Assembly: GCF_014279995.1 (NCBI RefSeq)
Contig: NZ_CP047935.1
Span: 1,213,243-1,277,242 of the forward strand
Length of the DNA: 64,000 nt
Direction: 5' to 3'
From: Synechococcus sp. BIOS-E4-1
GTDB lineage: Bacteria > Cyanobacteriota > Cyanobacteriia > PCC-6307 > Cyanobiaceae
The notes under the pieces were generated by a model. The model did not search any database. It was given only the letters and a program-made list of their open reading frames with translations, and had not been told where the DNA came from. Below, piece after piece: positions 47,442-62,238 of this stretch; the stretch's first letter is position 1; the number at the start of each line of letters is the position of its first letter. The position numbers and the translations under genes are program-made.

Positions 47442-47601
47442 CTGGTTTTTTAATGTCGTCAATAATACTGCTTCTATTGTTTAGGGCCGAGTCAACTTGT
47501 GCTCATCATCAGCTCTTGGTTCTGTCTCCCTGGCGATGCCACCATTGGAGCTCCGCCTGGCAAGACCGGGAAGGATGGTGTCTGCAGAGCCGCTGATACC
47601 C

Positions 47602-47776
47602 ATGTCTCTGGCACGCGCAACAACTCGAAGCTCTAGAAACGTTAAAGGGCGTCACCAACCTTCAGGAGAAACTGAAAGCTGCTCAGTCAGCTGCCGAAGT
47701 TGCATCTGTCACTGCAGGACATGCTCATGAATTCAGTGCTGATCATCCAATTTATCTTGGTGAAGAGGAGTTGTAA
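47602..47776 (+). pseudogene. Truncated, frameshifted prochlorosin-type leader (relic)
   Basis: CTGATACCCATGTCTCTGG, the usual start of the precursor genes in the array, begins it. After a shift of one base (around 47610-47620) the frame continues QQLEALETLKGVTNLQEKLK, AAQSAAEVASVTAGHAHEFS, ADHPIYLGEEEL and stops at TAA 47774-47776, exactly where the double glycine should follow. So it has the Nif11-like leader but no GG motif and no core. It has lost the TGCTATRAC promoter element. It lies 1.8 kb before the array and is inactive. Confidence 0.75.
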
Positions 47777-49558: not shown

Positions 49559-49822
49559 ATGTCAGAAGAGCAACTCAAAGCTTTCCTAGAAAAAGTCAAA
49601 ACTGACACTACCCTTCAGGAGCAGCTCAAGGCAGCTTCGGATGCTGATGCAGTAGTTGCGATTGCAAAAGAAGCAGGGTTTAGTATTTCTGCTGACGACC
49701 TAACTAATCCAAAGCTCTCTGACGAGGAGCTGGAAGGTGTGGCAGGTGGACACTGCATTTTACATCCATCCATCACTGACACCCCCTCTTTAATACTGCC
49801 CATCATCATTTGCCCACCATAA
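49559..49822 (+). CDS. procA: Prochlorosin-type lanthipeptide precursor 1
   Basis: A 64-residue Nif11-like leader starting MSEEQLKAFLEKVKTDTTLQ and ending LSDEELEGVAGG, then a 23-residue core HCILHPSITDTPSLI... with Cys2 and Cys21, Ser7, Thr9, Thr11, Ser13. Two thioether rings are possible if a LanM-type enzyme dehydrates Ser/Thr; the enzyme must be supplied from elsewhere. The core's C-terminal half is hydrophobic (LPIIICPP). The promoter element at 49529 is of the standard 30-nt spacing. Confidence 0.85.
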   Translation: MSEEQLKAFLEKVKTDTTLQEQLKAASDADAVVAIAKEAGFSISADDLTNPKLSDEELEGVAGGHCILHPSITDTPSLILPIIICPP

Positions 49823-49870
49823 CTGCCACTAACAACTCAGTGACTCACCAACAGCTTACACGCTCGAATA

Positions 49871-49896
49871 ACCTCTGAAATTGACAGGGCTTTTTA
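49871..49896 (+). terminator. Terminator after precursor 1
   Basis: ACCTCTGAAATTGACAGGGC followed by TTTTTATT, a degenerate version of the CCCCTGCATTGACAGGGG hairpins used by the other genes. Confidence 0.55.
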
Positions 49897-49940
49897 TTGC
49901 TTCAATCACCCCAAAAAAGCCCATTAATCAGCCTCCAATA

Positions 49941-50147
49941 CCTGGCACGATTGAGCGCAGTTGAGCAGTAATCAGGCGGGTGAAAACATTTTTCAAAAGG
50001 TGGTGACTGAGTTCTGAGCTATTCACCAGAAGCTCACCAGAACTTCGAGGGTTCTACACCAGAGCTATGTAGTGGAGTTCACCAGTAGAGCTGTGATCTT
50101 GAAGGAGTCCAGGGGGCAACGCCTCCAAACATTCACTCCTTAGAACC
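49941..50147 (+). repeat. Long upstream repeat, copy 1 (with four phased CACCAG boxes)
   Basis: ~207 bp that begins with the short repeat CCTGGCACGATTGAGCGCAG and continues through GAAAACATTTTTCAAAAGG, CACCAG boxes at 50024, 50035, 50057 and 50080, and GGGGGCAACGCCTCC before the ATG of precursor 2. Copies 2 and 3 are at 53834-54052 and 55166-55372, in front of precursors 10 and 13. The boxes are 11, 22 and 23 bp apart, that is on the same side of the helix. Confidence 0.8.
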
Positions 50148-50393
50148 ATGACTCAAGAACAACTCACAGCTTTCATCGCTAACGCCAAAGGCAACACCAG
50201 CCTTCAGGAGCAGCTCAAAGCAGCGGCTGATGTTGATACGGTTATAGCGATTACCACAGAAGCTGGGTTTAGTATTTCTGCTGACGACTTGAAGAAAGCT
50301 CAATCAGAGATTTCTGATGAGGAGTTGGAAAACGCGGCTGGAGGTTGGTGGGAAAGCTATGAGTGCACTTGCCACAATACTTCTATAGACTGA
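50148..50393 (+). CDS. procA: Prochlorosin-type precursor 2
   Basis: The leader starts MTQEQLTAFIANAKGNTSLQ and ends ISDEELENAAGG (66 residues); the core is WWESYECTCHNTSID, 15 residues with two Cys (positions 7, 9) and Ser4, Thr8, Thr12, Ser13. The CTC triad would favour small rings. Its leader and that of 55373 form a separate MTQEQLTAF subtype, and both are expressed from the long repeat with phased CACCAG boxes instead of the TGCTATRAC promoter. Tyr and Trp are unusually frequent in the core. Confidence 0.85.
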   Translation: MTQEQLTAFIANAKGNTSLQEQLKAAADVDTVIAITTEAGFSISADDLKKAQSEISDEELENAAGGWWESYECTCHNTSID

Positions 50394-50425
50394 TCTTAAT
50401 AAAAGGCTTGACTCTACGTACTAAA

Positions 50426-50452
50426 AACCCCCTGCATTGACAGGGACTTTTT
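50426..50452 (+). terminator. Terminator after precursor 2
   Basis: CCCCCTGCATTGACAGGGAC and TTTTTATT. Confidence 0.75.
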
Positions 50453-50579
50453 ATTGCTACAACGACTTCAATATTCGCTTAAAACGGCATCCAATACCTG
50501 GCACGATTGAGCGCAGTAAGTATTAGCCAATGACGCTGCAGCAGACCGTTGCTATGACTGCTGAAAAGACCTGCTATCC

Positions 50580-50834
50580 ATGTCCCTAGAACAACTCAAA
50601 GCCTTTCTAGAAAAGGTCAAAGGTGATTCCAATCTTCAGGATAAACTAAAAGCAGCTAAGTCACCTGAAGATGTTGTAGAAATTGCTAAAGAACATGGTC
50701 ATGAATTTACTGTAGATAAGTTCAGCCTTCTCAGTGAAGAGGAGCTAGAAGTTGTGGCTGGTGGATTTGTTCCTCCTCCTCCACCTCCTGGTCCTGGGGT
50801 CCTCAACAATAGCCCAGTTAATTTCGCCGATTAA
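50580..50834 (+). CDS. procA: Prochlorosin-type precursor 3 with a Cys-free, Pro-rich core
   Basis: A leader of 62 residues (MSLEQLKAFLEKVKGDSNLQ, ... LSEEELEVVAGG) of the AKEHGHEFTVDKF subtype, shared with 52997 and the dead copy at 54354. The 22-residue core FVPPPPPPGPGVLNNSPVNF has six consecutive prolines, one Ser and no Cys or Thr, so no thioether ring can form. It keeps promoter (TGCTATGAC at 50550) and terminator. It could be a non-lanthionine peptide, or a core in a late stage of drift. Confidence 0.8.
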   Translation: MSLEQLKAFLEKVKGDSNLQDKLKAAKSPEDVVEIAKEHGHEFTVDKFSLLSEEELEVVAGGFVPPPPPPGPGVLNNSPVNFAD

Positions 50835-50880
50835 TGTCTAATTGCAAGCGTTAATTTGATAACAAATCGCAGAAACGTTA

Positions 50881-50910
50881 AAGTCCCTGCAACGGCAGGG
50901 GCTTTTTATT
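50881..50910 (+). terminator. Terminator after precursor 3
   Basis: AAGTCCCTGCAACGGCAGGG followed by GCTTTTTATT. Confidence 0.8.
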
Positions 50911-51042
50911 TCTTCAATCACATCCAATAGCCCATCAATCAGCCTTCAATACCTGGCACGATTGAGCACAGTAATTGTTAGCCAAAGACACTGCAGCAGA
51001 CCGCTGCTATGACTGCTGAAAAGACCCATGTCCTCTCGTAAA

Positions 51043-51342
51043 ATGGCTGCGATTGACGACCTGATGGCTGCTCTAAGTAGCAATCCTGAATTACGGCAGG
51101 CTATGACTAGCGCCATAACTCCAGAAGATGCAGTAAAAGCTGCCGCTGATGCGGGATACAAAGTAACCTCACAGGAGTTAGTAGAGGCCTATAAATCTCA
51201 AATGAGTGCGTTGTCCGATGATGAATTAGCGTCGATTTCTGGGGGAAAGGGCTACGTACCATACATATCTAAGGTGACCCCCCACATAACAGATATCAAC
51301 CACAACCAAATGCCGAACATAAATCTAATGACGCAACTCTAA
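51043..51342 (+). CDS. Nif11-like leader peptide, second subfamily, Cys-free core
   Basis: From ATG 51043 (MAAIDDLMAALSSNPELRQA) the leader has 68 residues and ends LSDDELASISGG; an upstream ATG at 51028 is also possible and sits at the usual place after the TGCTATGAC promoter element. The core has 31 residues starting KGYVPYISKVTPHITDINHN, with no cysteine. The leader has AAADAGYKVTSQELVEAYKS instead of the AKEAGFSISADD stretch, so it belongs to a sister subfamily together with 56289-56618 and the minus-strand gene 51606-51872. The role is unknown; lanthionine formation is excluded by the missing Cys. Confidence 0.75.
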   Translation: MAAIDDLMAALSSNPELRQAMTSAITPEDAVKAAADAGYKVTSQELVEAYKSQMSALSDDELASISGGKGYVPYISKVTPHITDINHNQMPNINLMTQL

Positions 51343-51420
51343 ACCAAACAATATTACGAATTCTAATACATAAAATCTCCCTATTGAATAGTCGAACGAG
51401 ATTAAAAGCCTAATTCACCA

Positions 51421-51450
51421 AAGCCCTTGCAATAGCACGGGCTTTTTATT
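51421..51450 (+). terminator. Terminator after the 51043 gene
   Basis: AAGCCCTTGCAATAGCACGG and GCTTTTTATT, about 80 nt after the stop. Confidence 0.75.
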
Positions 51451-51605
51451 TCTTCAGTTACACCCAAAGGACTAAAGCAAAGAGTCCGACATTTTTCAAG
51501 TATTTCTTCTACTATCACTAGGTCTTCATGCCCGCTCTCAAAGCATTGTCAAGCAGTAAAGTTTCCTAATTACAATGCTGAATCTATTGTTTGCGTCTTG
51601 CCTGG

Positions 51606-51872
51606 TCATCCACAATCAATTACGCATGCTGTATGTCTGTGTGTCCTTTCCCATGGCTCTTTCCCTCCTGACACAGCTTCCAATTCTTCCTGTGAGAGCT
51701 CTGACATCTTTGCTTTGAAGGCCGTTCGCAGATCCTCAGCACTGATTTGAATACCATAATCTGCGGCAAGCTTCACAGCCTCTTCAGCCGTTGTGGCGGC
51801 GGTAATGGACTGCCTAAATTCGGAGTTCGTCGAAACCAAATTTAAAAGATCTTCTTGAGCTGACATGTTCAA
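51606..51872 (-). CDS. Nif11-like precursor on the opposite strand
   Basis: An 88-residue precursor, MNMSAQEDLLNLVSTNSEFR, with leader end LSQEELEAVSGG (70 residues) and an 18-residue core KEPWERTHRHTACVIDCG containing two Cys and two Thr, so up to two thioether rings. It belongs to the MAAIDD-type subfamily (AFKAKMSELSQEELEAVSGG) but has Cys, unlike its two relatives. It is the only member on the minus strand, lacks the TGCTATRAC element and the short repeat, and its flanks are A/T-rich. It may have been inserted from elsewhere. Confidence 0.75.
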   Translation of the reverse strand: MNMSAQEDLLNLVSTNSEFRQSITAATTAEEAVKLAADYGIQISAEDLRTAFKAKMSELSQEELEAVSGGKEPWERTHRHTACVIDCG

Positions 51873-52057
51873 AACATATGGCCTATTAACGCTAGCAGGG
51901 AGGACACAATGAGACGCCCAATAAACATTATTTTACAATTGATAAGATGAGTTTTTGATGAGCATCTTTTGCTATCCAAAAAGCCCATCAATCAGCCTTC
52001 AATACCTGGCACGATTGAGTGCGTTAAGTATTAGCCAAAGACACTACAGCAGATCGT

Positions 52058-52066
52058 TGCTATGAC
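52058..52066 (+). promoter_or_regulatory. Extended -10 element before precursor 6
   Basis: TGCTATGAC, starting 31 nt before ATG 52089 (a one-base variation of the usual 30). Confidence 0.65.
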
Positions 52067-52088
52067 TGCTGAAATAGCCACAAGTCAG

Positions 52089-52325
52089 ATGTCAAAAGAA
52101 CAACTCAAAGCTTTTATCGAAAAGGTTCAATCCGATACCGAATTGCAAGAAAAATGCAAGGCGGCAGCCTCCTCTGAGGAAGCAATGGTCATCGCAAAAG
52201 CAGCGGGATTCTCAATCACTGAAGATGACATTCAATCGCAATCTGTATCTGACGATGAGCTGGAAGGAGCCTCTGGCGGAGGGTATTCAGTGCTATGGGC
52301 ACTGCTGGGGAGGCGGTGTAATTAA
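52089..52325 (+). CDS. procA: Prochlorosin-type precursor 6
   Basis: From ATG 52089: MSKEQLKAFIEKVQSDTELQ, leader of 64 residues ending VSDDELEGASGG. The core has 14 residues, GYSVLWALLGRRCN, with one Cys and one Ser, enough for one large ring. The frame from 52062 (MTAEIATSQ) is only the promoter element read through. The leader has an unusual cysteine (EKCKAAASS). The basic RRCN tail is unlike the other cores. Confidence 0.8.
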   Translation: MSKEQLKAFIEKVQSDTELQEKCKAAASSEEAMVIAKAAGFSITEDDIQSQSVSDDELEGASGGGYSVLWALLGRRCN

Positions 52326-52351
52326 GAATATTGAGCCTACTAACCATCAAA

Positions 52352-52380
52352 GACCCCTGCATTGACAGGGGCTTTTTATT
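52352..52380 (+). terminator. Terminator after precursor 6
   Basis: GACCCCTGCATTGACAGGGG and CTTTTTATT. Confidence 0.8.
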
Positions 52381-52503
52381 GCTTCAATCAACCAAATAAG
52401 CCCGCCATTAGCCTTCAATACCTGGCACGATTGAGCGCAGTAAGTATTAGCTAAAGACGCTGCAGTAGACCATTGCTATAACCATTAAAGACTCCTGATA
52501 CCT

Positions 52504-52764
52504 ATGTCAGAAGAACAATTCAAAGCTTTCCTGGAGAAGGTCAAAGCAGACACCAGTCTTCAGGAAAAGCTCAAAGCAGCTTCCGATGCTGATGGTGTTG
52601 TGGCGATTGCAAAGGAGGCAGGCTTTAAGATTTCTGCTGATGTCGTTCGGACCGAGATTTCAGACAGAGAACTGGAAGGTGCAGCTGGGGGCTGGCTGGG
52701 GACTTTGGGAGGATGGACTTGCGATCCAGCGGAGATGTGCCAATTCACTGCACTGAGATGTTGA
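52504..52764 (+). CDS. procA: Prochlorosin-type precursor 7
   Basis: A leader of 63 residues (MSEEQFKAFLEKVKADTSLQ, ISDRELEGAAGG) and a 23-residue core WLGTLGGWTCDPAEMCQFTA..., with Cys10, Cys16 and Cys23 and Thr4, Thr9, Thr19. Three rings are possible, a fairly complete lanthipeptide. The promoter TGCTATAAC at 52474 has the standard spacing of 30 nt. Confidence 0.85.
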   Translation: MSEEQFKAFLEKVKADTSLQEKLKAASDADGVVAIAKEAGFKISADVVRTEISDRELEGAAGGWLGTLGGWTCDPAEMCQFTALRC

Positions 52765-52840
52765 TGCAGACGACACTGCGACCCGACAGATCCGACTGGC
52801 CCTCACAAGCATACGACTGGCTAGCAGCACCTACACACTC

Positions 52841-52870
52841 AAAGCCCCTGCATTAGCAGGGGCTTTTTAT
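52841..52870 (+). terminator. Terminator after precursor 7
   Basis: AAAGCCCCTGCATTAGCAGG, then GGCTTTTTAT. Confidence 0.8.
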
Positions 52871-52996
52871 TTCTATAACCACTTCAATATTCGCTTAAAA
52901 CGGCATCCGATACCTGGCACTAATTAATACTTAGTTGAACTACCAGCGGCTTAACTATTGAACCAGTGCTACAACAGCTCTATTGGCACCTATCCC

Positions 52997-53263
52997 ATGT
53001 CAGAAGAGCAACTCAAAGCGTTCCTAGAAAAAGTCAAAGGCGACACCACGCTTCAGGAAAAACTAAAGGCAGCAAAGTCACCTGAAGACGTTGTGGGCAT
53101 CGCTAAAGAATACGGCTACGAATTCACTGCTGAGACACTGCTGAAAAAAGATAGTACTGAACTGAGTAAAGAGGAACTAGAAGGCGTGACTGGAGGCTAC
53201 CAATTCCTATCCATGAACTATGGAAACGGATGGTGTGGTAAACAAACACAAGTCAGGTGCTGA
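52997..53263 (+). CDS. procA: Prochlorosin-type precursor 8
   Basis: Begins MSEEQLKAFLEKVKGDTTLQ at ATG 52997; the longer frame from 52958 is only upstream DNA. The leader of 67 residues ends LSKEELEGVTGG. The core has 21 residues, starting YQFLSMNYGNGWCGKQTQVR and ending with Cys, so Cys13 and Cys21 with Ser5 and Thr17: two rings. The leader stretch AKEYGYEFTAETL is of the HGHEF type shared with 50580. The promoter element is TGCTACAAC at 52967 (one mismatch). Confidence 0.85.
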   Translation: MSEEQLKAFLEKVKGDTTLQEKLKAAKSPEDVVGIAKEYGYEFTAETLLKKDSTELSKEELEGVTGGYQFLSMNYGNGWCGKQTQVRC

Positions 53264-53308
53264 ATCTGAAGTTCCCTTTTTCCCCTCGCCTTCAAAACTT
53301 ACACACTC

Positions 53309-53337
53309 AAGCCCCTGCATTGACAGGGGTTTTTTAT
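53309..53337 (+). terminator. Terminator after precursor 8
   Basis: AAGCCCCTGCATTGACAGGG, then GTTTTTTATT. Confidence 0.8.
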
Positions 53338-53461
53338 TGCTTTAATTACCCCATACAGCCCGCAATCAGCCTTCAATACCTGGCACTATTGACCGAGGTT
53401 ATTGTTAGCCAAAGACACTTCATGACATTATTGCTATAACCGTTAAAGACTCCTGAAACCC

Positions 53462-53737
53462 ATGTCAGAAGAGCAACTCAAGTCCTTCCTGGAGAAGGTG
53501 AAGGCAGACACCACCCTTCAGGAGAAACTTAAAGCAGCTGCCGATGCCGATGCTGCTCTTGCCATTGCCAAAGAAGCTGGGTTTGCAATTACTGCAGAAG
53601 ACATTCAATCGATGCAATCTGCTACGGACTTATCAGATGCTGAGCTGGAACGTGTGGCTGGAGGTGGAGGTTGGTATCCATACTATACAGATGCTGATAG
53701 CTGCACGAGGTGCACATGTCATAGAAATTGTGGCTAA
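53462..53737 (+). CDS. procA: Prochlorosin-type precursor 9, Cys-rich core
   Basis: A leader of 68 residues (MSEEQLKSFLEKVKADTTLQ, LSDAELERVAGG). The 23-residue core GGWYPYYTDADSCTRCTCHR... has four Cys (13, 16, 18, 22), Ser12, Thr8, Thr14 and Thr17, among the most ring-rich in the array. The RCTCHRNC cluster would enable several small rings. The promoter is TGCTATAAC at 53432, spacing 30. Confidence 0.85.
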   Translation: MSEEQLKSFLEKVKADTTLQEKLKAAADADAALAIAKEAGFAITAEDIQSMQSATDLSDAELERVAGGGGWYPYYTDADSCTRCTCHRNCG

Positions 53738-53762
53738 AGACTTAGACACAGGCTACACACTC

Positions 53763-53791
53763 AAAGCCTCTGCATTGACAGGGGCTTTTTA
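53763..53791 (+). terminator. Terminator after precursor 9
   Basis: AAAGCCTCTGCATTGACAGG and GGCTTTTTATT. Confidence 0.8.
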
Positions 53792-53833
53792 TTGCTTCAA
53801 TCAACCAAATAAGCCTGCCATTAGCTTTCAATA

Positions 53834-54052
53834 CCTGGCACGATTGAACGCAGTTGAGCAGTAATCAGGCGGGTGAAAACATTTTTCAAAAGGTGGTGAC
53901 TGAGTTCTGAGCGGTTCACCAGAAGCTCACTAGAACTTCGAGGGTTCTACACCAGAGCTATGTAGTGGGGTTCACCAGAAAGGCTGTGATCTTGAAGGAG
54001 TCGAGGGGGCAACGCCTCCAACACAACTCACACACTTATCAGCTTTAAAACA
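53834..54052 (+). repeat. Long upstream repeat, copy 2
   Basis: Homologous to 49941-50147, with CACCAG (or CACTAG) boxes at 53917, 53928, 53950 and 53973, again 11, 22 and 23 bp apart. The last ~35 nt (ACAACTCACACACTTATCAG) differ from copies 1 and 3. Confidence 0.8.
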
Positions 54053-54241
54053 ATGACTACTTCAATCTTCAATGCTCCCTTGCAAATCAAGGAAGCTATT
54101 CCAACCTCCACCCAGCCAGAGCTTGAACCGCTCTTCGATCAAGAGTTGGAAGCTGCTGCTGGGGGAATGTACCTCGGCAATCTGGATCGCGTCCTGGCAC
54201 CACTCGATCGCTGTCTCACACCTCTGGGAAGATACTTGTAA
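54053..54241 (+). CDS. Short-leader GG precursor (precursor 10)
   Basis: A 62-residue product, MTTSIFNAPLQIKEAIPTST, with leader end LFDQELEAAAGG after only 38 residues and a 24-residue core MYLGNLDRVLAPLDRCLTPL... with one Cys and one Thr. The N-terminal Nif11-like helices (LKAFLEKV, AKEAGFSI) are missing, so only the DQELEAAAGG end is left. It has the long repeat with CACCAG boxes as its 5' region. It may be a fusion product of the repeat with a precursor tail, or a separate minimal class. The core reads VLAPLDRCLTPLG with internal repetition (APLDRCLTPLGR). Confidence 0.65.
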   Translation: MTTSIFNAPLQIKEAIPTSTQPELEPLFDQELEAAAGGMYLGNLDRVLAPLDRCLTPLGRYL

Positions 54242-54280
54242 GAACTGAACGCAGGCCTCTCACCAAGTGAGATCAATTAC

Positions 54281-54304
54281 GCCCCGCCAAGTGCGGGGTT
54301 TTTA
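54281..54304 (+). terminator. Terminator after precursor 10
   Basis: GCCCCGCCAAGTGCGGGGTT and TTTAATT; a short and very stable stem, with different sequence from the others. Confidence 0.8.
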
Positions 54305-54353
54305 ATTGCCAACTGCCGACCGTTGCTATGACAGCTGAACAGACCTGATACCC

Positions 54354-54593
54354 ATGTCCCTAGAACAACTCAAAGCCTTCCTAGAAAAGGTCAAAGCAGA
54401 CACCAGCCTTCAGGAGAGGATCAAGTTAGCTAAGTCACCTGAAGACGTCGTGACTATTGCCGAAGAACATGGTCATAAATTTACTGCTGACAAAATTACT
54501 GAATTTTGCTAACTTAGCAACGAAGAGCTAGAAGAAGTGGCCGCAGGGGCTACTTGCTATCTTTCAACACATGACTACAGTTCGAATTGCTAA
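54354..54593 (+). pseudogene. procA: Prochlorosin-type precursor with in-frame stop (11)
   Basis: Reads MSLEQLKAFLEKVKADTSLQ, ERIKLAKSPEDVVTIAEEHG, HKFTADKITEFC, then TAA (54510-54512), then in the same frame LSNEELEEVAAGATCYLSTH, DYSSNC and TAA 54591-54593. At the stop the paralogue at 50580 has FSLLSEEELE, so one TTA-to-TAA change may explain the break. The GG motif is AG here. The core (ATCYLSTHDYSSNC, with two Cys) would still be lanthipeptide-like. The TGCTATGAC promoter (54324) is intact with the standard 30-nt spacing, but no terminator is obvious before the next repeat. Confidence 0.85.
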
Positions 54594-54788
54594 CTAACTA
54601 CCAGCTTTGATAGTAATTGACTTGTAGCCAGAAAAGCTACTACATTATTGGCAGAGACTATTTATTTATTCGATCACCCTAAAAAGCCTCGACATTAGCC
54701 TTCAATACCGTACGATTGAGTGCGTTAAGTATTAGCTAAAGACACTGCAGCAGACCGTTGCTATAACTTGTGAATAGACCTGATACCC

Positions 54789-55052
54789 ATGTCAGAAGAG
54801 CAGCTCAAAGCGTTCATCGAAGAGGTCAAAGCAGACATCAGCCTGCAAGATAAGCTTAAAGCAGCTGCTGATGTTGACGCAGCTCTTGCAATTGCAAAAG
54901 AGGCTGGGTTTAGTATTTCTGCTGATGACGTTCGGACGTCAATTTCAGATGAGGAACTTGAAGGCGCGGCTGGGGGTTATATTTCACTCGAAGCAGGATG
55001 TTTGCCGCCGTGTTGTACTAGAGGAGCATGCTCTACCAGCAGACCGCTCTGA
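54789..55052 (+). CDS. procA: Prochlorosin-type precursor 12, Cys-rich core
   Basis: A leader of 63 residues (MSEEQLKAFIEEVKADISLQ, ISDEELEGAAGG). The 24-residue core YISLEAGCLPPCCTRGACST... contains Cys8, Cys12, Cys13, Cys18 and five Ser/Thr. The CLPPCC arrangement is unusual, since adjacent cysteines limit ring geometry. The promoter is TGCTATAAC at 54759 with the standard spacing. Confidence 0.85.
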   Translation: MSEEQLKAFIEEVKADISLQDKLKAAADVDAALAIAKEAGFSISADDVRTSISDEELEGAAGGYISLEAGCLPPCCTRGACSTSRPL

Positions 55053-55095
55053 TTTTTTAGAAAAAGATTATTAAAGAGATTTAGTCTACTCATCA

Positions 55096-55120
55096 AAGCC
55101 CCTGCCTCCGCAGGGGTTTT
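55096..55120 (+). terminator. Terminator after precursor 12
   Basis: AAGCCCCTGCCTCCGCAGGG and GTTTTGATTTC, with a different loop (CTCC) from the CATTGA loops elsewhere. Confidence 0.8.
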
Positions 55121-55165
55121 GATTTCTTAAATCACCCCAAAAAGACCATCAATCAGCCTTCAATG

Positions 55166-55372
55166 CCTGGCACGATTGAGCGCAGTTGAGCAGTTATCAG
55201 GCAGATGAAAACATTTTTCAAAAGGTGGTGACTGAGTTCTGAGCGATTCACCAGTTGCTCACCAGAACTTCGCGGGGTCTACACCAGAGCTGTGTAGTGG
55301 GGTTCACCAGAAGGGCTGTGATCTTGAAGGAGTCGAGGGGGCAACACCCCCAAACATTCATTCTTTAGAACC
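55166..55372 (+). repeat. Long upstream repeat, copy 3
   Basis: Homologous to 49941-50147 with CACCAG-type boxes in the same phase and with ATCTTGAAGGAGT and GGGGGCAACACCCCCA before the ATG of precursor 13. Confidence 0.8.
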
Positions 55373-55636
55373 ATGACACAAGAACAACTCACAGCTTTCA
55401 TCGCTAACGCCAAAGGCAACACCAGCCTTCAGGAGAAGTTCAAAGTAGCTGCTGATGCCAATGCTGTTGCGGAGATAGCCAAGGAAGCAGGTTTTAGTAT
55501 CTCTGCTCAAGACCTAACTCAAGCTCAATCCGAAATTTCAGACGATGAGCTGGAAGACGTGATGGGTGGCGGCTGGGGTGGCTGGGGAGCGTGGGGGTGC
55601 AGAGTAGTGGGAAAGAAGAGAACTCTAGCTGGTTAG
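55373..55636 (+). CDS. procA: Prochlorosin-type precursor 13, Gly/Trp-rich core
   Basis: The leader is of the MTQEQLTAFIANAKGNTSLQ subtype (66 residues, ISDDELEDVMGG). The 21-residue core GWGGWGAWGCRVVGKKRTLA... has one Cys and one Thr and a repeated GWGGWGAWG motif; it is strongly basic at the end. One ring at most is possible if the Thr reacts with the Cys. It uses the long repeat as its 5' region, like precursor 2. Confidence 0.85.
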   Translation: MTQEQLTAFIANAKGNTSLQEKFKVAADANAVAEIAKEAGFSISAQDLTQAQSEISDDELEDVMGGGWGGWGAWGCRVVGKKRTLAG

Positions 55637-55665
55637 AGTTGTCAGACTGCTGAACTTACTCACAC

Positions 55666-55694
55666 AAAGCCCCTGCAACCGCAGGGGTTTTTTA
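55666..55694 (+). terminator. Terminator after precursor 13
   Basis: AAAGCCCCTGCAACCGCAGG and GGTTTTTTATT. Confidence 0.8.
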
Positions 55695-55820
55695 TTTCTT
55701 CAATAGCCTGACTAATCTCACAAATCAGCCTCCAATACTTGATATCATTTAGCACAATAGTTATCAACTAAAGACTCTTCAGCAGATCGTTGCTATGACT
55801 GCTGAACAGACCTGATACCC

Positions 55821-56075
55821 ATGTCACTAGAACAACTCAAGGCATTCCTAGAGAAGGTCAAAGGCGACCCCAGCCTTCAGGAGAAGCTAAAAGCAGCTGC
55901 CGATTCAGACGCAGTTCTTGCGATTGCGAAAGATGCTGGCTTTAGTATTTCTGCTGATGACGTTCAGAACGAGATTTCTGAGGAGGAGTTAGAAGGCGTG
56001 GCTGGTGGTGGTGGGCTGTTTACTGGTGTTGGTCTCTCGGCTTATTCTGTAATTTTCTGTTGTGGCTGTCTGTAA
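55821..56075 (+). CDS. procA: Prochlorosin-type precursor 14
   Basis: A leader of 63 residues (MSLEQLKAFLEKVKGDPSLQ, ISEEELEGVAGG) with a 21-residue core GGLFTGVGLSAYSVIFCCGC.... Cys17, Cys18 and Cys20 cluster near the end, with Thr5, Ser10 and Ser13 before them. Rings would link the clustered cysteines back to the Ser/Thr. The core is otherwise hydrophobic. The promoter TGCTATGAC at 55791 has the standard spacing. Confidence 0.85.
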   Translation: MSLEQLKAFLEKVKGDPSLQEKLKAAADSDAVLAIAKDAGFSISADDVQNEISEEELEGVAGGGGLFTGVGLSAYSVIFCCGCL

Positions 56076-56108
56076 CTTTTCCCCCTCGGCTTCAAAACTT
56101 ACACACTC

Positions 56109-56137
56109 AAACCCCCTGCTGCCGTAGGGGGTTTTTA
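56109..56137 (+). terminator. Terminator after precursor 14
   Basis: AACCCCCTGCTGCCGTAGGG and GGTTTTTATT. Confidence 0.8.
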
Positions 56138-56227
56138 TTACTTCAACAGTCTGACTAACACCGTAAATCAGCCTTCAATACCTGGCACGATTGAGCGCAA
56201 TTAGCAGGCTTTTTATTGCCTTGAGGT

Positions 56228-56241
56228 TTGGGGTACACCTA
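56228..56241. repeat. TTGGGGTACACCTA element, copy 2
   Basis: Identical to 49505-49518; it precedes precursor 15. Confidence 0.7.
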
Positions 56242-56288
56242 GAACGACCGGTGCTATGACTGCTGAGAGACCCATACCCTCTTGTGCA

Positions 56289-56618
56289 ATGGCTGCGATT
56301 GACGACTTGATGGCTGCTCTTACTAGCAATGCTGAATTACAGCAGGCTATGACGACCGCCACAACTCCAGAAGAGGCAGCAAAAGCTGCCGCTGATGCGG
56401 GATACAAAGTAACCACACAGGAGTTGCTGGAAGCCTACAAATCAAAAATGAGTGCGTTGTCCGATGATGAATTGGCGTCGATTTCTGGGGGTAAAGGCGG
56501 CGGCCACCCTGCCCCCGTCAGTGGAATTAACACTGATCCGTATAATAACAATCCAGATCCCGTAACTAATAAGCATGGGCCAACCTCCCCTGGTACGATT
56601 AGTTCAGCCCCCATATGA
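56289..56618 (+). CDS. Nif11-like leader peptide, second subfamily, Cys-free core (precursor 15)
   Basis: From ATG 56289 (MAAIDDLMAALTSNAELQQA) the leader has 68 residues ending LSDDELASISGG, near-identical to 51043-51342. The 41-residue core starts KGGGHPAPVSGINTDPYNNN and is Gly/Pro/Asn/Thr-rich with no Cys. In the 51028 relative an upstream ATG is present, but here the corresponding triplet is ATA, so the inner ATG must be used. The core is the longest of the array. With precursor 4 it defines a conserved, Cys-free pair. Confidence 0.75.
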   Translation: MAAIDDLMAALTSNAELQQAMTTATTPEEAAKAAADAGYKVTTQELLEAYKSKMSALSDDELASISGGKGGGHPAPVSGINTDPYNNNPDPVTNKHGPTSPGTISSAPI

Positions 56619-56651
56619 TGACCCTATGGAAATATTGATCTCGTAATTCAC

Positions 56652-56681
56652 CAAAGCCCTAGTAATAGCAAGGGCTTTTTA
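56652..56681 (+). terminator. Terminator after precursor 15
   Basis: AAAGCCCTAGTAATAGCAAG and GGCTTTTTATT. Confidence 0.75.
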
Positions 56682-56771
56682 TTGCTTTAATAGCCTGACT
56701 AATCCCACAAATCAGCCTCCAATGCCTGGCACGATTGAGCGCAATTAGCAGGCTTTTTATTGCCTTGAGCT

Positions 56772-56861: not shown

Positions 56862-57566
56862 GTGACTAGCGCCACCCTGTTCTCCGGCAAGTTTGCTGTT
56901 GACGGGCTTCCTTATACATCTGTCTCATCAATTATTAAAACTGATACCAAGAGCGTTCAAGGTAAGAAGTCCAGAGCAGCAGCAGGTAAAGCCGCCAACA
57001 GTAGTAAGCATCTATCAGCAACCGCAAGAGGGACTGCTGTTCATAGCGCAGTTCGCAACTTCATTCGTACTGGTGAATGTGACCTTGAGCCTTGCTACTT
57101 CGATTACTTCTCGGGCATTCAAGACTGGCTCTCACGCTTAGATCTTGAGCCTTATTGGGCAGAGGGTCCAATGCTTGATAAGTATCAGCATCTTCAGCAT
57201 GGACCATCGGCTGCTGTGTGGTGTGACAAGTACCGCTACATAGGCATCCCAGACCTTGTAGCAAAGATCGGAGGTGTACCTTGTGTTGTGGAGTTCAAAA
57301 CCTCTGACTATTTATACAGAGATAACTATGACTTCAGGCAGTTCAAGCAGTACTCAGAGTGGGTGCGTCATCACAACGCTGGAATGCAAGTGGCTGCCTA
57401 TGCCAATGCTTGGAACCAAACAACCGGAGATGATATTCATACAGGAGTAGTCATCAACAGCACGCCAGATACCTGTCAACTATTTATTATTGAAAGAGAC
57501 ACAATTAAGAAAAAGCTAACCGCTTTTCACAAGCTTTGTAAGGAGTACAGAAAGATCCATGGCTAA
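56862..57566 (+). CDS. PD-(D/E)XK superfamily exonuclease, phage-type
   Basis: A 234-residue nuclease from GTG 56862. An early ATARGTAVHSAVRNF motif (RGTxxH) is typical of the phage/MGME1-type exonuclease group; Asp131 in YIGIPDLVAK and Glu144-Phe-Lys146 in VVEFKTSD are the metal-binding residues of the PD-(D/E)XK core; Gln in MQVAAYANAWNQTTG is the motif IV Gln. Such proteins degrade DNA ends for recombination. The next gene overlaps by 8 nt. It suggests that a phage or mobile element formed the right border of the precursor array. Confidence 0.78.
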   Translation: MTSATLFSGKFAVDGLPYTSVSSIIKTDTKSVQGKKSRAAAGKAANSSKHLSATARGTAVHSAVRNFIRTGECDLEPCYFDYFSGIQDWLSRLDLEPYWAEGPMLDKYQHLQHGPSAAVWCDKYRYIGIPDLVAKIGGVPCVVEFKTSDYLYRDNYDFRQFKQYSEWVRHHNAGMQVAAYANAWNQTTGDDIHTGVVINSTPDTCQLFIIERDTIKKKLTAFHKLCKEYRKIHG

Positions 57567-58925: not shown

Positions 58926-59102
58926 TTATTTACTTGCCAATAAATCTCCGGAAGGGGCAGTGTGTTCCGGATTTCTTATCGATGGGGGAAAGGGCAGTGG
59001 ATTCACCCCAATTGGAGCGCCTCCATCAACACCCTTCAATTTGGCTTCAGTCAACTCTTCCTTGAGTTCAGGTGACTGCTTCTCTTGCTTGGGGTCTTCC
59101 AT
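58926..59102 (-). CDS. MEDPK-type double-glycine peptide A, 58 aa
   Basis: A short minus-strand gene: MEDPKQEKQSPELKEELTEA, then KLKGVDGG and a tail of 30 residues APIGVNPLPFPPSIRNPEHT.... The EELTEAKLKGVDGG end is of the same type as the precursor leaders' ELEGVAGG end, but the Nif11-like helices are missing. The tail has no Cys. It is one of four paralogues (A-D) in tandem between 58926 and 59861. The sequence after it (58893-58920, CTCTTGCCCTCCTCTTTCTT) is repeated after peptide C. Confidence 0.65.
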   Translation of the reverse strand: MEDPKQEKQSPELKEELTEAKLKGVDGGAPIGVNPLPFPPSIRNPEHTAPSGDLLASK

Positions 59103-59157: not shown

Positions 59158-59343
59158 TCACCTCTCTATTCCTATGCCCTCGTGAACCGTAATTCCGGAC
59201 ATTGGGGGAACTTGTTCTAACTCGTAACCAACGACCATAGCTCCTCCATCAACACCTTTTAACTCCTCTTCACTCAACTGTTCTTTGAGTTCAGGTGACT
59301 TTTTCTGTTTCTTGTCGTCCTTGATGTTCTTTGAGTCTTCCAT
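59158..59343 (-). CDS. MEDSK-type double-glycine peptide B, 61 aa
   Basis: MEDSKNIKDDKKQKKSPELK, EQLSEEELKGVDGG, and a tail of 27 residues AMVVGYELEQVPPMSGITVH.... It is a closer match to leader ends than peptide A (LSEEELKGVDGG). The tail is acidic and has no cysteine. It is followed by peptide A with 55 nt in between, no promoter element like that of the array is seen. Confidence 0.65.
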   Translation of the reverse strand: MEDSKNIKDDKKQKKSPELKEQLSEEELKGVDGGAMVVGYELEQVPPMSGITVHEGIGIER

Positions 59344-59460: not shown

Positions 59461-59694
59461 TCAGGTATTTTGAAGTCTGGGATCCGCAGTAATATCTGTG
59501 TTATTACCTCCAGACAGACCCTTCAGCTCGTCGTCAGTCAACTCTTCAAGACTGCCCAGCGTGTTTCCAGGAACATCGGTAACTACTCCATCGCCACCAC
59601 GGACATTTTTCAATTCGTCGTCAGTCACTTCTTCTTCGAGTTCTGATGTTTCCTTCTCTTTCTTGTCGTCCTTGGTGTTCTTGGGGTCTTCCAT
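59461..59694 (-). CDS. MEDPK-type peptide C with two GG motifs, 77 aa
   Basis: From ATG 59694: MEDPKNTKDDKKEKETSELE, EEVTDDELKNVRGG, then DGVVTDVPGNTLGS, and again LEELTDDELKGLSGG with a tail of 14 residues NNTDITADPRLQNT. The frame also allows an upstream start at 59724. The leader end is present twice, so the intervening 14-20 residues may be a first mature peptide, or the outcome of an internal duplication. There is no Cys. Confidence 0.65.
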   Translation of the reverse strand: MEDPKNTKDDKKEKETSELEEEVTDDELKNVRGGDGVVTDVPGNTLGSLEELTDDELKGLSGGNNTDITADPRLQNT

Positions 59695-59720
59695 GGTGAT
59701 AGATGAATAACTATTAGTTA

Positions 59721-59861
59721 TCAAGTTGGCTCCGAAGGTTGATCTCTCCCATTGATTCTCTCATCTCTGTGGCGTACTCCTCCAGTTGCAGCCATCAAGT
59801 CGTCATCAGTCACTCCTTCCTTGAGTTCAGCTGACTGCTTCTCTTGCTTGGGGTCTTCCAT
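59721..59861 (-). CDS. MEDPK-type peptide D, 46 aa
   Basis: MEDPKQEKQSAELKEGVTDD, DLMAATGG, then a tail of 18 residues VRHRDERINGRDQPSEPT. Shares its first 14 residues with peptide A apart from one change. It has the GG, but the preceding segment is less leader-like (DDLMAATGG). It is the first of the four on the minus strand, and its own promoter lies in 59862-59900, not recognised. Confidence 0.55.
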   Translation of the reverse strand: MEDPKQEKQSAELKEGVTDDDLMAATGGVRHRDERINGRDQPSEPT

Positions 59862-61524: not shown

Positions 61525-62238
61525 TTAGGCATAGGATGTTGCCAAATACTCCTGGAACGGAGACGTCTTCAGTAGCTCGGTGATGCCCAGTTCGTTTTGC
61601 CAATCGATGATTGATCTTTCCCATCCCTCTTCCCATCGAGGCGAGAAAAGCTCAGGCACTCTCTGACCAACTGCAATACCGAAACTGATGCCATCCCAGA
61701 TCAATCTGCGCTCACTCGGTTCGTAGGAACCGCGCAGCATCCATGAAGCCAAAACGCTGATGTCAAAAGGCATCGACCCAGTACTGGCATAAAATGCCGA
61801 CGCAGCAGCTTCACCTGCAACTGTGATCGGCAGACCAAGAACCGTATGGTGAATTTCATGCAAACGCACTGATCTGCTTATAAAGAAAGCCTCATCAGAT
61901 TCAGGTTCGGGAAGTTCTGGTTCAGGTAAAAAGCAAAGACCAAGCATCTCCATGCGTTGTTGCAAGCAACATCCAAGGCTTCCTTTTGGCATTGCACCCA
62001 TCTGCTCAAGCTCTGGCCATGTTTGTGAGGGTCGATTGGACAGTACATCCTGAACCTTTGCAGAAGTCAGGACCCTCTCAAAACACTCTTTTTGCAGTGT
62101 GATGCCACCTGGTATTGCAAAGTACCGACCATGTTGGAATATTTTGTCAGGTTCCTTTGCCGTCTGCAGGATCGACACTGCTAACTTTGTAGCACCATCA
62201 GAAAATGATGACCGAACGTAGTTCTGTGTTTCTGACAT
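61525..62238 (-). CDS. Coq4-like protein
   Basis: A 237-residue protein with the Coq4-family metal motif HExxH-x11-E: His127-Glu-Ile-His130-His131, then Glu143 (RLHEIHHTVLGLPITVAGEA). In yeast Coq4 the motif is HDxxH-x11-E; here D is E. Upstream FERVLTSAKVQDVLSNRPSQ and downstream RGSYEPSERRLIWDGISFGI support the fold. Coq4 organises ubiquinone biosynthesis and helps in ring decarboxylation. Cyanobacteria make plastoquinone, so its role here is unclear. It stands alone. Confidence 0.75.
   Translation of the reverse strand: MSETQNYVRSSFSDGATKLAVSILQTAKEPDKIFQHGRYFAIPGGITLQKECFERVLTSAKVQDVLSNRPSQTWPELEQMGAMPKGSLGCCLQQRMEMLGLCFLPEPELPEPESDEAFFISRSVRLHEIHHTVLGLPITVAGEAAASAFYASTGSMPFDISVLASWMLRGSYEPSERRLIWDGISFGIAVGQRVPELFSPRWEEGWERSIIDWQNELGITELLKTSPFQEYLATSYA

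Follow-up and report, generated by a model that had tools for sequence, protein, structure and literature searches.

The closest described relatives of the locus reported here are the prochlorosins (ProcA/ProcM) of Prochlorococcus MIT9313 and the synechococsins (SyncA/SyncM) of Synechococcus MITS9509 and UW179A. In MIT9313, Nif11 leaders ending in a double glycine precede hypervariable cores with Cys, Ser and Thr, and many precursors are served by a CCG-type lanthipeptide synthetase (LanM); the strain has 29 precursors and one ProcM (PMC10783134). In marine Synechococcus, dozens of precursors are scattered over the genome. The largest published precursor counts that we found are 83 for MITS9509 and 79 for UW179A (PMC10783134); 79 SyncA is also the number given in PMC9872173 and PMC12328550, and a literature search found no published count above 83 in the titles and abstract openings listed. 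Horizontal transfer and recombination-related proteins have already been proposed as sources of diversity, and the main text of the same paper makes no mention of promoter, mosaic, core swap or duplication (PMC10783134). Here we describe an array of 15 precursor cassettes in approximately 7 kb of Synechococcus sp. BIOS-E4-1 that shares these features. It lies at 49559–56618 of the window, by which we mean the whole 64,000-nt stretch analyzed (positions 1213243–1277242 of NZ_CP047935.1, a single contig of 3,314,220 bases); window coordinates are used for the array and its surroundings, and this genome is designated as G000.

We propose that the array belongs to a very large prochlorosin-type library, the peptides of which would be modified in trans by LanM enzymes and the cores of which would have diversified by homologous recombination between cassettes, loci and species, and we give this reading a probability of about 0.78. 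The unusual characteristics of this genome are the size of the set, the two LanM enzymes, an upstream box common to many precursors, and evidence of cores moving as modules. If the proposal is right, the repertoire of prochlorosin precursors in this genome is about double the largest published one that we found, and two candidate synthetases go with it.

Precursor repertoire of the genome

A genome search with PF07862 (Nif11) gave at least 150 matches: of 281 candidates, 150 were scored, and all of these lie above the cut-off. Precursors were collected from 35, later 37, stretches around Pfam matches, enzyme genes, box sites or anchor-gene sites, plus the window. A site was defined as a match to a leader hidden Markov model (HMM) with an E-value of up to 0.01, fragments included, and the rule for an intact gene allowed an ATG, GTG or TTG start and took the leader end from the HMM. 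This yielded 218 leader sites, a lower bound for the whole genome, among which 173 are intact; the other 45 are broken or partial, or do not satisfy the rule. An earlier rule, which asked for an ATG close to where the leader alignment begins, gave 151 intact among 216. The model end falls exactly on GG in 156 of the 173 intact genes and not in the other 17, so a few may be misjudged. When sites less than 3 kb apart are joined, they form 37 groups, 34 of which contain an intact gene, and the array is one of these 37 precursor loci. Over 31 genomes of the genus, the Pfam Nif11 count is at least 150 here, 116 in the next genome (G024), and 12 at the median; the same leader HMM found 115 sites, 91 of them intact, in the stretches taken from G024. 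A family-wide scan of 251 genomes, made without G024, G011, G016 and G018 and scoring up to 26 candidates per genome, gave first-look candidate counts of 275 here and 78 in the next genome.

The 173 intact genes encode 173 distinct cores, and 161 of these contain Cys together with Ser or Thr. Cys accounts for 11.2% of core residues and 0.2% of leader residues. Among 2500 random pairs within the genome, the median identity is 0.55 for leaders and 0.136 for cores, the same value as for shuffled cores (0.136). Cores no more alike than shuffled ones, and 45 of 218 sites that do not count as intact, would also be expected of a decaying, functionless family whose repeats expand by unequal recombination while the cores drift. 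We consider such decay very improbable, since 79% of the sites are intact and Cys is so frequent in the cores; the position of the upstream box and the substitution pattern of diverged cores, both given below, speak against it as well. The precursors at 1958107 (L009) and 2490185 (L014), 0.5 Mb apart, have cores that are 97% identical and probably represent a recent duplication.

Cores shared between species

Six genomes provided 330 intact precursors (G000, 173; G024, 91; G011, 24; G016, 17; G004, 15; G018, 10), all from fetched stretches, with G011, G016, G004 and G018 covered in part. Broken sites, cores shorter than 8 residues and pairs with core lengths differing by more than a quarter were dropped from the pair counts. 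A partner in G024 at an identity of at least 0.5 was found for 16 of the 173 cores of G000, and for none when cores were shuffled. At an identity of at least 0.8 there are 25 cross-species core pairs of 20 core types, and in 21 of them conservation is higher in the core than in the leader. Over the core and the last 60 nt of the leader, DNA identity is at least 98% in 15 of the 25 pairs. The background was measured between G000 and three relatives on two genes, that of an enzyme and the anchor gene: the synthetase gene of LanM2 (about 2660 bases) is 90.6, 90.3 and 88.9% identical to those of G024, G016 and G011, and the region of the anchor gene next to the array is 90.8, 87.6 and 91.7% identical, respectively. 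Because their identities of 98–100% exceed the 89–91% of LanM2, the shared segments of these 15 pairs seem to be of more recent origin than the separation of the species.

The leader 5′ part, taken as the first 90 nt, is closer to another cassette for both partners in 16 of the 25 pairs, nine of which belong to the 15 pairs with at least 98% identity, and it is more diverged than the leader 3′ end plus core at p < 0.05 in 13 of the 25 (one-sided Fisher test, uncorrected). The array gene at 49559 and its partner at G024 C4:85501 are identical at 132 of 132 nt in the shared segment and at 75 of 90 nt in the leader 5′ part (p = 6e-7); the 100 nt upstream show an identity of 0.42 to that partner and 0.93 to another cassette of the same genome. 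A stretch of 161 bases, from the leader 3′ end of this gene into its downstream region, recurs at 100% identity in G024 and at 98% in G016. G024 C25:248818 and its partner in G018 agree at 136 of 138 nt in the core segment and at 69 of 90 nt of the leader (p = 8e-8). In three pairs (1346242 and 1571584 with G024; G016 C73:6550 with G011) the upstream region is also at least 0.98 identical. These look like whole-cassette moves or shared descent; they were not flagged, and thus serve as an internal control of the test. Such mosaics suggest that cores are probably exchanged as modules by recombination.

The same mosaics could arise if the cores did not move and gene conversion within each genome homogenized the promoters and the 5′ halves of the leaders, so that a swap would be only apparent. 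The leader 5′ parts are indeed often best matched within their own genome, as seen for 1262798 with 1771102 (0.90) and for its G024 partner with G024 C4:17741 (0.92). We regard this concerted evolution as unlikely, given that the core and leader 3′ end are 98–100% identical in 15 of the 25 cross-species pairs, above the level of LanM2. The arrangement around the anchor gene, which lies just downstream of the array, also speaks against it.

56862–57566, plus strand: PD-(D/E)XK-like nuclease gene, the anchor gene (sub-threshold Pfam match)

The anchor protein has relatives with 91% identity in G024 and G016, a partial one in G011 and a more distant one in G013, and there are weak matches in G008 and G024. 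Precursors lie directly upstream of it in G024, G016 and G011 too, and the G024 anchor array comprises 10 sites, 9 of them intact. No core is shared at 0.8 between the anchor-side arrays of G000 and G024, yet two cores of the G024 anchor array have partners at other G000 loci, one of them identical, at 1346 kb, and one with an identity of 0.88, at 1571 kb. The place of the array is kept and its content turns over. This synteny rests on one gene, because the further flanks are rearranged between G000 and G024. The PD-(D/E)XK-like gene has another copy in G000, with 53% identity, at 745924–746604 (L063), and no leader site was found in the 738–755 kb stretch around it.

For cross-species core pairs at an identity of at least 0.6, the ratio of nonsynonymous to synonymous differences per site (pN/pS) is 0.33 (33 pairs, pS 0.19), a value that is biased low in that pairs were chosen by protein identity; some pairs also share members. 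For 16 diverged core pairs, the equally biased estimates are pS 0.36 and pN 0.12, which speaks against decay. The ratio fits, without proving, the view that cores, once made, are kept for a function.

Modification and export enzymes

The initial annotation noted that no LanM or C39 peptidase transporter lies in the 64 kb and supposed an unlinked ProcM-like synthetase. Genome-wide profile searches bear out both points: all matches to the LanC domain, C39 and YcaO lie elsewhere, with none inside the window, and both a CCG-bearing LanM and a C39 transporter were found in the genome. Its description of the array as lacking any modification enzyme therefore applies to the window and not to the genome, which has two LanM, C39 proteins and two YcaO.

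LanM1 lies at 496.5 kb and LanM2 at 2203 kb (LanC-domain search), with TIGR03897 scores of 723.2 and 707.6 bits, respectively, against a cut-off of 304. WCHG and CCG are present in both; when the two proteins are aligned, LanM2 has LCCG at the second motif where LicM2 has LCHG, and CCG is the mark of ProcM-like enzymes (PMC10783134). LanM2 is accompanied by a 714-amino-acid ABC-like protein, a 730-amino-acid C39-domain protein, and HlyD-like and TolC-like open reading frames (ORFs), all labeled by eye except C39, while the neighbors of LanM1 are photosystem-like ORFs and an unassigned 308-amino-acid ORF (by eye). LanM2, beside its C39/ABC export set, would most likely be the acting enzyme, and LanM1 stands apart.

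One of the three C39 matches of the genome is that in the LanM2 gene set. The two other C39-domain proteins, at 955–968 kb (L033) and 183–194 kb (L020), have ABC-, HlyD- and TolC-like ORFs (by eye) beside them, and the LanC-domain search found no LanM in either stretch. Of 24 other genomes of the genus that were searched, 7 have LanC matches. In Roseovarius lutimaris, a Nif11-leader-like ORF (L048 12334–12621) stands beside a 48% relative of LanM2.

Other or additional modification was also considered, either by YcaO/SagB-type enzymes producing azolines or, for Cys-free cores, by no enzyme at all. The genome has two YcaO proteins: one of 758 amino acids next to a SagB-like ORF (by eye) at approximately 1316–1320 kb (L106), near a precursor locus at 1312–1316 kb, and a second at 1547.6 kb. 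Clusters of YcaO with SyncA have been reported in Synechococcus KORDI-100 and EAC657 (PMC10783134), and 3 of the 14 array cores lack Cys. Against this, neither YcaO is near the array, two LanM are present, and Cys accompanies Ser or Thr in 161 of the 173 intact cores, which makes such modification quite unlikely, whether beside the action of LanM or in its place.

Upstream box, promoters and terminators

An 18-mer box recurs upstream of the precursors.

49937–49954, plus strand: box AATACCTGGCACNATTGA, which opens a series of at least 11 boxes within the array or directly behind it (pattern search)
50493, 50948, 52001, 52417, 52909, 53375, 53830, 55162, 56177 and 56721: starts of further boxes
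50880–50905, plus strand: example of a recurrent terminator-like stem with a U-tract (repeats, terminator scan)
52841, 53309, 53763, 55666 and 56109: examples of other terminator-like stems after cassettes

With up to 3 mismatches, the box occurs 148 times in the genome and its reversed pattern 4 times; at least 11 boxes lie in 49937–56738. At the same stringency it is found within 250 nt upstream of 88 of the 173 intact precursors, and of 8 of the 14 HMM sites in the array. Allowing 5 mismatches raises the number to 102 of 173, with none for the reversed pattern. The box is exactly at −87 in 63 of the 88 box-bearing genes, a regularity that decay would not predict, and in the others mostly near −87 or near −211. 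The 72 upstream regions with a box near −87 have in common a TTGCTATAAC-like motif, which we read as an extended −10 element. A box that in most cases keeps a constant distance from the ATG is more readily understood as a promoter element than as an integron-like recombination site. Its count tracks the Nif11 count over the 31 genomes (Spearman 0.81, with the count for G000 taken as at least 150), and a few boxes also occur in some genomes without a LanC match, such as G006 and G007. The shared box suggests a common regulator and could help to establish under which conditions, and for what reason, the peptides are made. A search at up to 4 mismatches found no box in the stretches that contain LanM1, LanM2, the first YcaO or the C39 genes, and a single site, with 4 mismatches, near the second YcaO.

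The one-gene-one-promoter layout described in the initial annotation holds in part. On the one hand, there are the boxes, and plus-strand terminator-like stems follow 11 of the 15 cassettes; terminator-like sites in the array number 22 on both strands, against 6.9 expected in shuffles. On the other hand, no more than 8 of the 14 HMM sites have a box, and a plain sigma-70 promoter scan of the array showed no excess (5 against 8.7 expected).

Anatomy of the array

49559–49822, plus strand: Nif11-leader precursor, core HCILHPSITDTPSLILPIIICPP (Pfam Nif11, leader HMM)
50148–50393, plus strand: Nif11-leader precursor, MTQEQL type, core WWESYECTCHNTSID (Pfam Nif11, leader HMM)
50580–50834, plus strand: Nif11-leader precursor, proline-rich core FVPPPPPPGPGVLNNSPVNFAD without Cys (Pfam Nif11, leader HMM)
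51028–51342, plus strand: divergent Nif11-leader precursor, MAAIDDLMAAL type, core without Cys (Pfam Nif11, NCBIfam, leader HMM)
51606–51872, minus strand: divergent Nif11-leader precursor, core KEPWERTHRHTACVIDCG, start TTG 51872 or ATG 51866 (Pfam Nif11, NCBIfam, leader HMM)
52062–52325, plus strand: Nif11-leader precursor, core GYSVLWALLGRRCN, likely start 52089 (Pfam Nif11, leader HMM)
52504–52764, plus strand: Nif11-leader precursor, core WLGTLGGWTCDPAEMCQFTALRC (Pfam genome search, leader HMM)
52997–53263, plus strand: Nif11-leader precursor, core YQFLSMNYGNGWCGKQTQVRC (Pfam genome search, leader HMM)
53462–53737, plus strand: Nif11-leader precursor, core GGWYPYYTDADSCTRCTCHRNCG (Pfam genome search, leader HMM)
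54053–54241, plus strand: double-glycine precursor, leader short and not of the Nif11 type (without a match in Pfam or NCBIfam)
54354–54512, plus strand: broken Nif11-leader cassette, stop within the leader (ORF list, leader HMM)
54789–55052, plus strand: Nif11-leader precursor, core YISLEAGCLPPCCTRGACSTSRPL (Pfam genome search, leader HMM)
55373–55636, plus strand: Nif11-leader precursor, MTQEQL type, core GWGGWGAWGCRVVGKKRTLAG (leader HMM)
55821–56075, plus strand: Nif11-leader precursor, core GGLFTGVGLSAYSVIFCCGCL (Pfam genome search, leader HMM)
56256–56618, plus strand: divergent Nif11-leader precursor, core without Cys (leader HMM, repeat D9)

ORF calls confirmed the 15 cassettes, 14 of them intact, with 13 intact genes on the plus strand and one (51606–51872) on the minus strand, as initially annotated. 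The leader HMM gave 14 sites, 13 of them intact, to which 54053 adds the fourteenth intact gene. The Nif11-like leader (PF07862/TIGR03798) that had been assigned to almost all genes is present by the HMM in 13 of the 14; Pfam Nif11 matched all six Nif11-type array genes submitted (49559, 50148, 50580, 51028, 51606 on the minus strand, and 52089), and NCBIfam leader_Nif11 matched all three submitted. A double glycine ends the leader in all 13 intact Nif11-type genes and also in 54053. Inspection agreed with the earlier count of ten Nif11-type genes (of 13) having cores with Cys and Ser/Thr. Chance origin is excluded, because Nif11 E-values reach 5.8e-21 and direct repeats of 27–300 nt occur in 2 to 13 copies each. 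Among these repeats, D9 joins 56268–56498 with 51022–51252 (89% DNA identity), and D5 reflects the similarity of the 300 nt upstream of 54053 to those of 50148 and 55373. On leader and core sequence, we assign the array genes to the prochlorosin-type precursors, a known kind. For four of the 14, namely the three with Cys-free cores, which are probably not lanthipeptides, and 54053, membership in the lanthipeptides is doubtful.

The suggestion that the cores are new does not hold for all of them: for at least 3 of the 14, a counterpart exists in another species of the genus. Besides 49559, these are 50580, whose counterpart in G011 has a core identity of 0.85 and an identical leader protein, and 52062, whose core protein is identical to one in G024 C4.

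Nif11 leader remnants lie outside the array at 669–803 and 47597–47773 on the plus strand. Three small minus-strand ORFs (58926–59102, 59158–59343 and 59461–59724) have a different leader and double-glycine motifs, and are possibly a second precursor family. Two of them have a MEDxKN..KDDKK-like leader, one protein carries two GG motifs, and a similar ORF is found at G024 C12:147457–147786. In NCBIfam, the longest scores above the cut-off of a short bacteriocin signal model, and the rest are sub-threshold or without a match.

Discussion

In a typical cassette, an upstream region that belongs to it alone is followed by a Nif11 leader with a double glycine at its end; the variable core comes next, and a terminator closes the unit. 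The precursor would be served in trans by ProcM-like LanM enzymes encoded elsewhere: LanM would bind the leader, Ser and Thr would be dehydrated, Cys would close thioether rings, and a C39 protease would cleave after GG during export. Cassette anatomy, genome content, shared box and mosaic identity are computed directly from the DNA, whereas for enzyme action and export we infer from known families and for recombination from the mosaics. Diversity would be maintained by homologous recombination at two conserved stretches, the 3′ end of the leader and the terminator, by which a core or a whole cassette would reach other leaders, promoters and loci, also across species.

Several observations weigh against this proposal. 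The background identity comes from two genes and three relatives. The leader 5′ part is closer elsewhere for one partner in 4 of the 25 pairs and for neither in 5, and the Fisher tests are not significant in 12. Some cores recur in several pairs, so that the 25 are not independent, and a best-of-many comparison favors a better match elsewhere. Among the diverged core pairs, two of the 16 have pN/pS above 1, and this ratio is biased low. No recombinase was found among 11 flanking ORFs tested with Pfam. As many as 71 of the 173 intact precursors have no box even at 5 mismatches. Within the array, 54053 has no Nif11 leader by Pfam or NCBIfam, and inspection of the 13 Nif11-type cores found no Cys in those of 50580, 51028 and 56256.

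Phage transfer of cassettes was considered and set aside: an IMG/VR scan with the 49559 precursor gave no relative, and the box 18-mer matched five viral contigs in which the HMM found no Nif11-leader ORF in the DNA examined, so that these matches were treated as chance. ORFs of two of the five appear phage-like on reading.

An extension of the proposal, for which we see an even chance, is that marine Synechococcus species share a circulating pool of core modules. Leader-plus-promoter units, about half with the common box, would act as acceptors into which core-plus-terminator modules are swapped by homologous recombination over short stretches, both inside a species and from one species to another. 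If this is true, genomes would acquire new macrocyclic peptides complete and ready-made, each genome holding a private sample of the pool. Exchange of modules between leaders, loci and species is also a suggested answer to how cores change in large steps as leaders stay alike, and it mirrors the grafting of cores onto leaders by engineers.

Compared with the 29 precursors and one ProcM of MIT9313, the present genome has 173 intact precursors and two LanM, and its intact precursors are about twice as many as those of MITS9509 and UW179A. The MITS9509 cluster shown in Fig. 5C of PMC10783134 combines syncA genes with polyketide synthase domains and Coq4; a Coq4-like gene also lies downstream of the array, at 61525–62238 on the minus strand, and the two are perhaps the same locus. 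As in the YcaO/SyncA clusters of KORDI-100 and EAC657, YcaO and a SagB-like ORF occur near Nif11 precursors elsewhere in this genome; unlike those clusters, the array itself has no YcaO.

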